DNA of 55,977 nucleotides, taken from Alphaproteobacteria bacterium (GTDB lineage Bacteria > Pseudomonadota > Alphaproteobacteria > RF32 > CAG-239). Made by a program: the position numbers and the translations under genes. Shown here piece by piece: positions 12,074 through 55,169 of the stretch. Where the stretch lies: the NCBI GenBank assembly GCA_017470585.1, contig JAFUYI010000050.1, forward strand, positions 1 to 55,977, given 5' to 3'. Positions within the stretch are counted from its first letter, which is position 1; the number at the start of each line of letters is the position of its first letter. The notes below the pieces were generated by a model. That model worked only from the letters and a program-made list of their open reading frames with translations. It ran no database searches and was not told the DNA's origin.

Positions 12074-12304
12074 TGAAACAAGGAAATCTTGTTTTGGGGT
12101 GTAACGACCTCTTGTCTGGTGTCATATCAAGACATAAAATTGCTTTCAGTCGTATATTATGGCTGGAAGGTGAAGGAATAAGGTATGATCCAAATACTTC
12201 ACACTGTTCCAGACAACAGTCGTTAACTTCCAGCCACCTCGCGGGTTTGAACGCCCAACAGGTGGCTTTCTTTGTTATAGCTTTAATAAAAAAAGGAAGT
12301 TTTT
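12074..12304 (+). promoter_or_regulatory. Structured attenuator leader RNA, cassette 2
   Basis: Complete leader. P1: AAACAAG/CTTGTTT. A conserved GGGGT/ACCTC hairpin overlaps arm A. Long-range helix: A AACGAC (12103-12108) with GTCGTT (12219-12224); B TGTCTGG (12113-12119) with CCAGACA (12209-12215). Inner stem Q: GTGAAG/CTTCAC, enclosing AATAAGG and CCAAATA. Switch: GGCTGGAAG (12161-12169) can pair with CTTCCAGCC (12227-12235), which overlaps the 5' arm of the terminator GCCACCT (12233-12239)/AGGTGGC (12260-12266) plus a T-rich tail. Both arms of the switch carry a change relative to other copies, preserving pairing. The ribosome binding site is GGAAG at 12295-12299. Confidence 0.75.
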
Positions 12305-20418: not shown

Positions 20419-20883
20419 CTATTGCGCAGAATATGAAATGGTAATAGTCCCGGAATGCTCTCCCTCAGAAGGAACAGAGCTATAATCAATACTTCCACCC
20501 ACTTCAAATTGATTGCCGGATTTATGTTCAATGCCGAGGTTTCCTACCACAAAACCAGCCATGTCATTATTATCAGTTACAGATAATCCGGTTCTTTGCG
20601 ATGGATTAGGTACATTAGCCGTAAAAGTACCGATATGATAATCCCTTACCGCCATTACTCCACCGCCATAATCTACTTCTGTCGGATTCCTAAATGCAAT
20701 ACCTCCACTTGTTTCACTAGGGTTTATGGTTAGATTGCCGAAACTTAACGATTCGCCCAAAGTCAAACTCACATCGTGGACTATTGTTGCGGTAACAGTC
20801 ATAGTTGCCGAGTTGCTGGCGTATGCGCAGTATGAACCCAAAGCAACTCCGGCAACACCAAGTAATAAAATATATTTATTCAT
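20419..20883 (-). CDS. Secreted small beta-rich protein, cassette family, copy 3
   Basis: 154 residues; exported, function unknown. Signal peptide MNKYILLLGVAGVALGSYCA ends at AYA-SNS; the constant NSATMTVTATIVHDVSLTLG follows, then FGNLTINPSE, the only copy with FGN in place of LGT. The body lacks mature-region Cys and carries the YGGGVMAVRD-type segment shared with copies 6 and 8, then GTFTANVPNPS and the final SGTITISYSAQ. ATG 20883 is used because GGAAG lies just upstream; an in-frame ATG eight codons earlier precedes that site. Own promoter, leader and terminator. Confidence 0.82.
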   Translation of the reverse strand: MNKYILLLGVAGVALGSYCAYASNSATMTVTATIVHDVSLTLGESLSFGNLTINPSETSGGIAFRNPTEVDYGGGVMAVRDYHIGTFTANVPNPSQRTGLSVTDNNDMAGFVVGNLGIEHKSGNQFEVGGSIDYSSVPSEGEHSGTITISYSAQ

Positions 20884-21104
20884 AAGTCTTACTTCCTTTT
20901 TTATCAAAATTATAAAGAAAAACCACCTTTTGGGTATTAAACCCGCGAGGTGGTTGGAAGTTAGCTACTGTTAAGTGGAACAGTGCAGGGTATTCTTTAT
21001 ATTTCCCCACCTTCCAACCATAATACGGTTAGAAGAAATTTTATATCTTATCAGACACCACTTAAGAGGTAGCTACACCTCAAAGCAGAATTTTCCCTGC
21101 TTCA
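20884..21104 (-). promoter_or_regulatory. Structured attenuator leader RNA, cassette 3
   Basis: Complete leader. P1: AAGCAG/CTGCTT. GAGGT/ACCTC hairpin. Helix A: TAGCTAC (complement at 21069-21075) with GTAGCTA (20962-20968). Helix B: TTAAGTGG (21058-21065) with CCACTTAA (20971-20978). Inner stem Q: GTGGGG with CCCTGCAC (bulged). Switch: GGTTGGAAG (21011-21019) with CTTCCAACC (20952-20960). Terminator: AACCACCT/AGGTGGTT (20921-20955) with GGGT/ACCC inside, followed by TTTTCTTTAT. Helices A and B have a sequence unlike any other copy but remain fully paired. Confidence 0.77.
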
Positions 21105-21110
21105 ATTTTC

Positions 21111-21139
21111 ACTCTAGCACAAAAAAATTTTATTGTCAA
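21111..21139 (-). promoter_or_regulatory. Cassette 3 promoter
   Basis: Minus strand TTGACA (21134-21139), 17 bp with a T tract, extended -10 TGCTAGAGT (hexamer 21111-21116). Confidence 0.75.
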
Positions 21140-27975: not shown

Positions 27976-28203
27976 CTTAAAAACTTCCTTCTTTTATTAA
28001 AGTTATAAAGAAAAACCACCTTTTGGGTACAAAACCCGCGAGGTGGTTGGAAGCTAGAAACTGACTGTTAGTTCAGTGCAAAGTATTTGGCTTCCACCTT
28101 ATTTCTTTGCCTTCCAACCATAATAGCAGGAAGAATTTTTACGTTTTCTTAAAAACGCTAACAGAGAGGCTTCTAGACCTCAAAGTGACTTTTCATTCAC
28201 TTC
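27976..28203 (-). promoter_or_regulatory. Structured attenuator leader RNA, cassette 4
   Basis: Complete leader. P1: AAGTGA/TCACTT. GAGGT/ACCTC-type hairpin. Helix A: CTAGAAGC/GTTTCTAG (one G-U). Helix B: CTGTTAG/CTAACAG. Local hairpin: GCGTTTT/AAAACGT. Stem Q: GCAAAG/CTTTGC, enclosing AATAAGG and CCAAATA. Switch: GGTTGGAAG with CTTCCAACC. Terminator: AACCACCT/AGGTGGTT (28014-28048) with GGGT/ACCC inside and TTTTTCTTTAT after. All helices differ in sequence from the neighbours' but pair. Confidence 0.77.
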
Positions 28204-32444: not shown

Positions 32445-32679
32445 ATTCAAACTTCCTTCTTTAGTTTCTTTATAACTTTAATAAAAGAAACCACCCGTTG
32501 GAGCTGTATGCTCCGCGAGGTGGTTGGAAGTTTCAGACTGTTGTCTAGAACAGTGTTGAGTATTTGGTTAAACCTTATTTCCCAACCTTCCAACCATAAC
32601 GGCAGGAATAAATTTTACGTTTTTATAAAACGCTAGACAAGAGGTCTGAACACCTCAAAGTGACTTTTCATTCACTTCG
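32445..32679 (-). promoter_or_regulatory. Structured attenuator leader RNA, cassette 5
   Basis: Complete leader. P1: AAGTGA/TCACTT. Hairpin GAGGT/ACCTC. Helix A: TTCAGAC/GTCTGAA. Helix B: TTGTCTAG/CTAGACAA. Local hairpin: GCGTTTT/AAAACGT. Stem Q: GTTGGG/CTCAAC (one G-U). Switch: GGTTGGAAG with CTTCCAACC. Terminator outer stem AACCACC/GGTGGTT (32489-32525), but the inner stem is GGAGC/GCTCC instead of GGGT/ACCC, a paired replacement. T-rich tail, then GGAAG and the start. Confidence 0.77.
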
Positions 32680-39488: not shown

Positions 39489-39705
39489 AAGTCTTACTTC
39501 CTTTTTTGTTAATATCAAAAGAAACCACCTTTTGGGTTATTTCCCCGCGAGGTGGTCGGAAGTTAGCAACTGTGATGTAAAACAGTGTAGGGTATTCTTT
39601 ATATTCCCCTACCTTCCAACCATAAGCGATTAGAAGCAATTTTATGTCTTGACAGGACATTACATCAGAGGTTGCTACACCTCAAAGTGACTTTTCACTC
39701 ACTTC
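39489..39705 (-). promoter_or_regulatory. Structured attenuator leader RNA, cassette 6
   Basis: Complete leader. P1: AAGTGA/TCACTT. Hairpin GAGGT/ACCTC. Helix A: TAGCAAC/GTTGCTA. Helix B: TGATGTAA/TTACATCA. Local hairpin: ATGTC/GACAT. Stem Q: GTAGGG/CCCTAC. Switch: GGTTGGAAG with CTTCCGACC (one G-U). Terminator: ACCACCT/AGGTGGT (39523-39557), tail TTTCTTTTG. The ribosome binding site GGAAGT is complementary to ACTTCC of the switch strand. Confidence 0.77.
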
Positions 39706-39740: not shown

Positions 39741-39771
39741 GAAAAATTTTTTAAGTTTTAAAAAAAATCGC

Positions 39772-39800
39772 TTGAAAATAATAATAAAATAAGGTATATT
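39772..39800 (+). promoter_or_regulatory. tmRNA promoter
   Basis: TTGAAA (39772-39777), 17 bp, TATATT (39795-39800), placing the start near 39807. Confidence 0.7.
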
Positions 39801-39806
39801 TTCAGG

Positions 39807-40100
39807 TGTTGAGCAATCAACTGTGATACCAGAGGCACTGCGAAATAGAAATTTCGGACCCGGGGGCGGTACCCGGCGTCTCCACCAACGGGGACGAAAC
39901 AGGTTTGACGGGGTTTAATAAAGGCAGGTGCTGTATTCGGCGAGATACCACCGTTATCGGTTCAAATTAAAATAAATGCTAACGATAATGAATTAGCACC
40001 TGTTGCTTTGGCTGCTTAATTGCGGTCGCAACGAACTTAAATTCTTAAAGCCTTGGTTGGCTTTAAGTGGGGAAGGAGCCGCCCAGCAACAGAAAGGCTC
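39807..40100 (+). ncRNA. ssrA: tmRNA, circularly permuted (alphaproteobacterial two-piece type)
   Basis: Rescues stalled ribosomes by trans-translation. The acceptor half comes first: T-stem CCGGG/CCCGG with loop GGCGGTA, then CGTCTCC-ACCA with CCA at 39885-39887. Only AC separates it from the coding half GGGGACG (39890-39896), which completes the 7-bp acceptor stem. The tag frame 39978-40019 encodes ANDNELAPVALAA followed by TAA. Pseudoknot-like stems follow. Ends are approximate: the 5' end is from the promoter, and the 3' end from the final hairpin GAGCC/GGCTC (40076-40100) with seven T. Mature RNA is expected as two pieces after processing between CCA and GGGG. Confidence 0.92.
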
Positions 40101-40108
40101 ATTTTTTT
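40076..40108 (+). terminator. Terminator of the tmRNA gene
   Basis: GAGCC (40076-40080) pairs with GGCTC (40096-40100) around a 15-nt loop, followed by ATTTTTTT. The loop is long, so the stem may also be part of the RNA. Confidence 0.55.
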
Positions 40109-42260: not shown

Positions 42261-42488
42261 ATTAAAAACTTCCTTTTTTATAACTTTAACAAAAGAAACC
42301 ACCTATTGGGTTTTTCACCCGCGAGGTGGTCGGAAGTTCTCAACTATCTTATATAATAGTCTTGCGTATTTGTGAAACCACTTATTCCGCAAGCTTCCGA
42401 CCATAAGCCGGATATAAACCGTATAACGTTCCGGTTCAAACGATATAAGAGAGGTTGAGACACCTCAAAGCGAAAATCCTTCGCTCTA
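42261..42488 (-). promoter_or_regulatory. Structured attenuator leader RNA, cassette 7
   Basis: Complete leader. P1: AGCGAA/TTCGCT. Hairpin around GAGGT/ACCTC. Helix A: TCTCAAC/GTTGAGA. Helix B: TCTTATAT/ATATAAGA. Local hairpin: AACCG/CGGTT. Stem Q: CTTGCG/CGCAAG. Switch: GGTCGGAAG with CTTCCGACC, where both arms carry a change relative to most copies. Terminator: ACCACCT/AGGTGGT (42298-42330), inner GGGT/ACCC, tail TTTCTTTTG. This copy gives the clearest compensatory pair in the switch helix. Confidence 0.78.
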
Positions 42489-54948: not shown

Positions 54949-55169
54949 GAAGCAAGGGATTCTTGCTTTGAGGTTTAGAACCCTCATAGACGATGCCGGT
55001 ATCGAGCATAATGCGATACGTCCGACTTTTTTGCGGTTGGAAGGTGGAGGAATAAGGTTTAACCAAATACTTCATACTATTTCGTCTAATAGGTTCTAAC
55101 TTCCAACCACCTCGCGGGTGATAACCCAACAGGTGGTTTTTTTATAACGTTAAAAAAGGAAGTTTGAAT
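54949..55169 (+). promoter_or_regulatory. Structured attenuator leader RNA, cassette 8
   Basis: Complete leader. P1: AAGCAAG/CTTGCTT. Helix A: TTAGAACC/GGTTCTAA. Helix B: TAGACGA/TCGTCTA. Stem Q: GTGGAG/CTTCAT (two G-U), enclosing AATAAGG and CCAAATA. Switch: GGTTGGAAG (55035-55043) with CTTCCAACC (55100-55108). Terminator: AACCACCT (55105-55112)/AGGTGGTT (55131-55138) with GGGT/ACCC inside and a T tract, the best intrinsic terminator of the set. The ribosome binding site GGAAG follows about 20 nt later, so a transcript stopped here cannot include the gene. Confidence 0.8.

Follow-up and report, generated by a model that had tools for sequence, protein, structure and literature searches.

The window analysed in this work is a stretch of 55,977 nucleotides, contig C12 of a gut alphaproteobacterial MAG (1.55 Mb, 102 contigs), and it carries copies 1 to 8 of one leader sequence. 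In a search with MgtE, MAGs from rumen and gut came out as the nearest named relatives, with 'Azospirillum sp. CAG:239' among the farther hits. On the plus strand, copy 1 is cut by the contig start (1..45), copy 2 spans 12096..12272 from its GAGG to its terminator, and copy 8 occupies 54970..55145. Copies 4, 5, 6 and 7 lie on the minus strand at 28008..28181, 32485..32656, 39517..39683 and 42291..42466, respectively. Copy 6 is adjoined by an alphaproteobacterial tmRNA (39768-40103), which the permuted tmRNA model matches too. When the window was scanned against Rfam 15, only tmRNA and tRNA reached the gathering threshold, and the T-box covariance model gave no match.

Copy 3, also on the minus strand, was dissected element by element. 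Its promoter contains a -35-like TTGACA (21134..21139), assigned from the sequence and from a promoter-like segment aligned across the copies, and an extended -10-like TGnTAnnnT about 17 nt downstream of it. The leader's first element is hairpin 1 (21082..21103), assigned from sequence and fold. The 5' strand of a short stem S1, GAGG (21078..21081), pairs with CCTC at 21066-21069, and the 5' arm of helix A (A5; TGTAGCTAC, 21077-21069) lies within the S1 loop. A constant CUC (21066..21068) forms the S1 3' strand together with C21069 and is followed by B5, the 5' arm of helix B (TTAAGTGG, 21065-21058). The antiterminator 5' strand GGTTGGAAG (21011..21019) was recognized by its covariation with 20952-20960. 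A second short stem, S2, pairs ACTG (20981..20984) with CAGT (20967-20970) and holds B3, the partner of B5 (CCACTTAA, 20978-20971), within its loop; the constant YA (CA in copy 3; 20969..20970) is a piece of the S2 3' strand. Then come A3, the partner of A5 (GTAGCTAAC, 20968-20960), the antiterminator 3' strand CTTCCAACC (20952..20960), of which AACC doubles as the base of the terminator stem, and an intrinsic-terminator-like hairpin AACCACCT...AGGTGGTT with a U-rich run (20914..20955). The gene behind, at 20422..20883, has 154 codons before its stop and encodes a pilin-like secreted protein. The copy-specific arms that the initial annotation had described at 20952-21075 on the minus strand are present as described, and copies 7 and 8 match the letters it quoted.

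The genes behind the leaders in the own genome are nearly all of one kind. By pattern and inspection, 132 of 133 distinct leaders precede a member of the same pilin-like family, with two types of signal peptide; 130 of these 133 ORFs have 150-193 codons, and the other three have 95, 100 and 121. A leader of the same family at C30:24898 stands before a different, unrelated lipoprotein-like gene. Searching the own genome with the copy-3 protein gave at least 150 matches (the best 150 of 285 candidates), while no match was obtained in 38 other genomes, 12 of them of the same genus. AlphaFold2 predicted a confident beta domain for the copy-3 protein (mean pLDDT 83.7; residues 18-30 of low confidence), and the best structural matches were the chaperone-usher subunits PapA, Caf1 and CsuA/B, with Z of 5.0-5.9. 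Since these matches are weak and Foldseek returned none at E 0.001, the chaperone-usher likeness is a lead and no proof. Of 67 members, 7 had a match to the Pfam family DUF4402 (PF14352) with an E value no higher than 10, the best being 0.00034; the copy-3 protein itself scored 14.8 bits, below the Pfam cut-off of 25.2. With only this weak similarity, a Pfam name for the protein was rejected. The protein is like the chaperone-usher subunits and DUF4402 in having a signal peptide and a predicted Ig-like beta fold, but its similarity to them is weak.

To count the leaders, 949,217 bases of the own genome were searched using nhmmer. The search gave 222 matches. Arms could be assigned in 200 of them, which comprise 193 distinct leaders; for these 949 kb, 193 is a lower bound. 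Most of the 22 unparsed matches are truncated where a contig or stretch ends, while the match at C100:13709-14002 is full length. Some contigs of the assembly are redundant (C71/C8, C69/C29, C74/C22, C70/C37 and C77/C88), which would inflate the copy counts unless duplicates were removed; therefore 7 exact duplicate leaders, from contigs about 100% identical over the compared flanks, were taken out. A conserved 18-base leader motif, allowing up to 3 mismatches, occurs 101 + 114 times in the own genome and its reversed control 0 + 1 times; this count of 215 versus 1 takes in the redundant contigs.

The arms pair with their own partners nearly without exception. The initial annotation had claimed wholesale compensation and proposed a collection of all cassettes as its check; the claim is supported, as across the 193 distinct leaders the arms overwhelmingly pair, with all seven A pairs formed in 190 and B pairs 2-7 in 186. 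In a first set of 133 leaders, cognate arms paired fully in 131 (A) and 125 (B, positions 2-8), while non-cognate arms did so in 4.8% (A), 1.0% (B) and, for both helices together, 3 of 17,556 cases. G-U pairs are almost missing from the standard pairs of these helices, with 0 of 527 at A positions 4-7 and 8 of 781 at B positions 2-7, against 8.5-18% in the other helices of the own leaders; for hairpin 1, middle and terminator the latter fractions come from minimum-energy folds and are possibly overstated, so that counts in fixed columns are fairer. In fixed columns of 87 distinct leaders from relatives, helix B had 5 G-U among 595 pairs and helix A (columns 7-13) 7 among 606, whereas helix 3 had 32 among 337 and the terminator stem (helix 5) 107 among 661. 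A fixed offset of 8 nt misreads the 9-nt B arms of relatives, and the figures for B were taken from other counts instead.

The constant CUC and YA had been annotated as an internal loop between helices A and B. Their constancy was confirmed, and two short alternative hairpins account for it: GAGG:CCUC, which encloses A5, and ACUR:YAGU, which encloses B3. The S1 3' strand reads CCTC in 184 of the 193 leaders, CCTT in 8 and CCCC in 1; in the 87 relatives the S1 columns are 99.4% paired, and two pairs have both sides changed. For S2, ACTG:CAGT was found in 117 and ACTA:TAGT in 52 of the 193 leaders, the exceptions including ACTG/TAGT in 4. S2 is 89.9% paired in the relatives, its outermost pair missing in 33 of 87. 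By inspection, farther families show further S2 changes, such as GGUUGGAGG:CCUCCAACC, ACAA:TTGT and ACCA:TGGT.

A further helix was found between the GGYYGGAAG of the middle region and the CUUCCRRCC directly 3' of A3. In its two variable columns, 328 of 380 pairs were Watson-Crick in the own leaders versus 236 after shuffling (maximum 256), and 135 of 152 versus 107 in relatives, with motif-lacking leaders left out (3 of 193 own, 16 of 92 relatives). It is 99.7% paired in the relatives and 5 of its 9 pairs have changed on both sides, in an alignment that was fitted to the rival structure. The terminator-like stem is kept as well, with a mean of 6.06 T in the next 8 nt (190 leaders). Since the last four bases of the antiterminator are the base of the terminator hairpin, the two helices cannot coexist. 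We infer that the A/B helix and the antiterminator are also mutually exclusive, because the antiterminator crosses A/B and the linker, from the neighbouring hairpin to B3, is about 6 bases long. The two states, OFF with the A/B helix and ON with S1, S2 and the antiterminator, were forced in ViennaRNA with pseudoknots ignored (190 leaders); with the terminator not yet made, the energies were -44.2 kcal/mol for OFF and -39.0 kcal/mol for ON, favouring OFF by about 5, and once it was included they were -60.9 and -49.2 kcal/mol, favouring OFF by about 12. In summary, a terminator-like hairpin with a U-run is located between promoter and start codon, and an alternative antiterminator, supported by covariation, has a strand in common with it, as in an attenuator. 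A conserved stem with AAUA/AAUA internal loops may be regarded as a candidate binding site for a metabolite.

A covariance model built from 48 own leaders was used for searching other genomes. Within the family it matched 119 of 126 genomes, from 15 of 16 genera, and within the class 25 of 289 genomes, from 18 families. Most genomes have one to few copies, which stand before differing genes, in relatives mostly those for envelope or exported proteins. Among 71 leaders of relatives outside G044, a genome with many copies, a crude hydrophobicity rule places 59 before an exported-type N-terminus; another 9 precede a protein without one, and the remaining 3 lack a nearby ORF of at least 60 codons. 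Tandem leaders were observed at L321 (genome G054) and L315 (G321); the tandem leader of G054 is followed at +214 by a non-envelope gene, which we take to be glutamyl-tRNA synthetase-like. Two exact matches to the leader motif occur in viral contigs, but the covariance model matched at neither of them, and a viral origin was dropped. In G044, which belongs to another genus (L144, L155-L173, L356-L406), the leader has expanded independently, with 94 covariance-model matches, and where examined the leaders mostly precede type IV pilin-like genes. The 60 readable leaders of these 94 have 60 distinct combinations made from 32 A and 53 B codes. The A arms of L173 and L371 in G044 do not pair fully; these may be decayed or recombinant copies.

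Taking these features together, we lean towards the reading that the leaders form a widespread alphaproteobacterial family of attenuators, in which the A/B helix sets the OFF state and private codes in its arms avoid cross-pairing. Each copy would head its own mRNA as a 5' leader. Formation of the long-range A/B helix would mark the OFF state, in which the terminator hairpin behind it would halt transcription. In the putative ON state, S1 and S2 would hold A5 and B3 in loops, and pairing of GGYYGGAAG with CUUCCRRCC would remove the base of the terminator. Since OFF would need two strands separated by about 100 nt, one of them could also be donated in trans by a leader that has an identical code. 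In a cell with about 200 leaders, selection would then keep the codes different and strictly Watson-Crick, cross-pairing in trans being the presumed cost that is avoided.

The divergence of the arms is by itself no argument for such selection. The arms differ between copies by a mean of 0.62 (A positions 4-7) and 0.66 (B positions 2-8), while for four-fold degenerate codon positions in the genes behind the leaders the value is 0.51 (range 0.12-0.73). These are old copies, with arms near saturation, about like unconstrained sites, so the divergence is no anomaly. The initial annotation had seen far more divergence in the arms than drift would give; this is true in comparison with the constrained framework, but hardly so in comparison with synonymous sites, and simple hypervariability was rejected as the main case because the arms are only modestly above such sites. 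Its statement that the arms differ in every copy has to be moved to another level, since individual arms are shared between copies, and uniqueness is found in the combination of A with B (192 of 193). Among 132 leaders, there are 48 distinct A codes versus 87 after shuffling of columns and 94 distinct B codes versus 128, and A and B combine freely.

The argument for selection lies in how the combinations are spaced. Counting over 14 letters in the 193 leaders, 2 pairs of codes are at most one letter apart versus 12.4 expected, and 38 pairs are at most two letters apart versus 66.5 expected, values not reached in any of 3000 permutations in both cases. At up to three letters there is no difference from expectation, and for identical codes the deficit is small (1 versus 2.4). 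Five control segment pairings show no depletion, and most of them an excess. The depletion persists in every random half, among pairs on different contigs and under two stratified permutations. Predicted duplexes between non-cognate arms behave in the same way, numbering 108, 34 and 5 when the energy may be no higher than -12, -13 and -15 kcal/mol, versus permuted means of 162, 72 and 15; in 69 permutations none was as low at -12 and -13 kcal/mol, and one was at -15 kcal/mol.

These counts bear on the reading of the arms as ordinary structural covariation, where only the A/B pairing matters and the letters drift freely with no selection for difference. Such drift would suit an arm diversity near that of four-fold degenerate sites. 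It would also suit G044, where the depletion is nonsignificant (0 pairs versus 1.8 expected at one letter, P 0.14; 9 versus 8.5 at two) with the low power of 60 leaders; G044 keeps the leader anatomy, yet does not replicate the depletion of codes, which is seen in one genome only. Close orthologous leaders in other species usually keep the same code, as free covariation would allow, so there is no quick turnover of codes where copies are few. Two orthologous pairs, L186/L189 and L196/L199, are near-identical except for helix B, which has changed on both arms; inspected for the path of these paired changes, G-U intermediates can explain the first pair, not the second. Free drift gives no reason, however, for near-identical A-B combinations being depleted when the five control pairings are not, in random halves and strata alike, nor for G-U intermediates being nearly absent compared with the other helices of the same RNA. 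We consider free covariation rather unlikely. The claim that every RNA pairs exclusively with itself, which could prevent cross-folding, has statistical support in the own genome (38 versus 66.5) and is not borne out at significance in G044.

The arms had further been proposed as addresses for a trans-acting RNA, which could be small RNAs encoded elsewhere in the genome. Combinatorial, unique codes with strictly Watson-Crick pairing are what such addresses would look like. But when the 18-base codes were searched for outside leaders on both strands of 871 kb of the 1.55 Mb genome, there were 0 matches at 0 or 1 mismatch and 7 at up to 2 mismatches, no enrichment over two controls (5 and 5 at up to 2 mismatches). 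The proposal is not supported by this search, and we regard small-RNA addresses as the least probable of the readings considered.

The inverted repeats might instead work as DNA, as recombination or mobility signals which shuffle the cassettes, with RNA structure being secondary. The cassettes are mosaic indeed: for the most part, promoter, hairpin 1, A, B, middle, terminator, gap to the ribosome binding site, signal peptide and ORF each have a history of their own. Copies which share B are alike in the middle between the B arms (identity 0.825 versus 0.602 overall), with flanks near baseline, none of the 48 B-sharing pairs shares A, and in aligned examples the shared block starts and stops at the A/B borders. 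The near lack of G-U in A and B would also be natural for a DNA signal. On the other side, the other helices accept G-U, antiterminator and terminator are covarying, mutually exclusive RNA structures, and most genomes hold one to few copies in front of different genes. A role mainly as DNA is thus very improbable, though slightly less so than small-RNA addresses.

A last alternative keeps the private codes and changes their use. A released leader would flip the nascent leader of its own gene in trans, and the code would be a private feedback loop. The half-codes are placed in hairpin loops beside a single-stranded partner (S1/A5/B5 and S2/B3/A3), which suits loop contacts, and the codes are unique and kept apart. 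Against this, pairing in cis is expected to be faster, and leaders of low-copy genomes share the same layout. We think that such trans self-recognition is improbable, but less so than the DNA and small-RNA readings.

The favoured attenuator reading can be carried further for the own genome. There, about 200 mutually orthogonal switches with selected two-part codes may recognise themselves, giving addressable on/off control of pilins and display of a single variant; we offer this tentatively, as a possibility that is less likely than not. Should the shortage of near-identical codes be due to selection against cross-pairing, it would be a natural case of paralogous regulatory RNAs evolving orthogonality. 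It would then become testable how many base-pairing switches can coexist per cell, since the depletion ends at about three letters' difference, and how a small genome runs about 200 surface-protein genes separately. The codes would also be a ready-made candidate set of orthogonal regulators.

For the identity of the RNA, the copy-3 leader gave two weak, chance-level rows in Rfam at E up to 5, 10 loci of relatives gave no match, and no description of this leader RNA was found in the literature searched. It is an RNA without an Rfam model, yet the searches showed it throughout one alphaproteobacterial family and, more sporadically, elsewhere in the class, in most cases in front of genes for envelope proteins. 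Judged from sequence, we would treat the leader as a new family of RNA and a novel variation on transcription attenuation, with a presumed mechanism as given above. In attenuators and riboswitches with intrinsic terminators, mutually exclusive antiterminator and terminator helices share one strand upstream of the regulated gene. The present leader likewise has a strand-sharing antiterminator and terminator upstream of a gene; it differs in that its presumed OFF helix bears copy-specific codes kept apart from each other, and in having no Rfam match.

The closest published case found, likened by its description, is the Brt RNA family of Bartonella. In the part of the paper available to us, Brt RNAs are alphaproteobacterial, multi-copy, structured RNAs that sit immediately upstream of genes paralogous to one another; a terminator/riboswitch region is predicted in them, and read-through is proposed to be conditional; they number from 0 to about 34 between species and are reported as Bartonella-specific (PMC5387305). 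The two families have in common their many copies, their position in front of paralogous genes and a suspected terminator switch. The Brt genes encode DNA-binding (helix-turn-helix) proteins, whereas the present leaders mostly precede exported proteins, and private codes or exclusive antiterminator helices are not mentioned for Brt in that part (PMC5387305). Selection against unwanted RNA-RNA pairing in prokaryotes has been described as mRNA:ncRNA avoidance (PMC5028192). According to the portion of that paper available to us, it is mRNAs that avoid ncRNAs there, whereas here paralogous leaders would avoid the codes of each other (PMC5028192).
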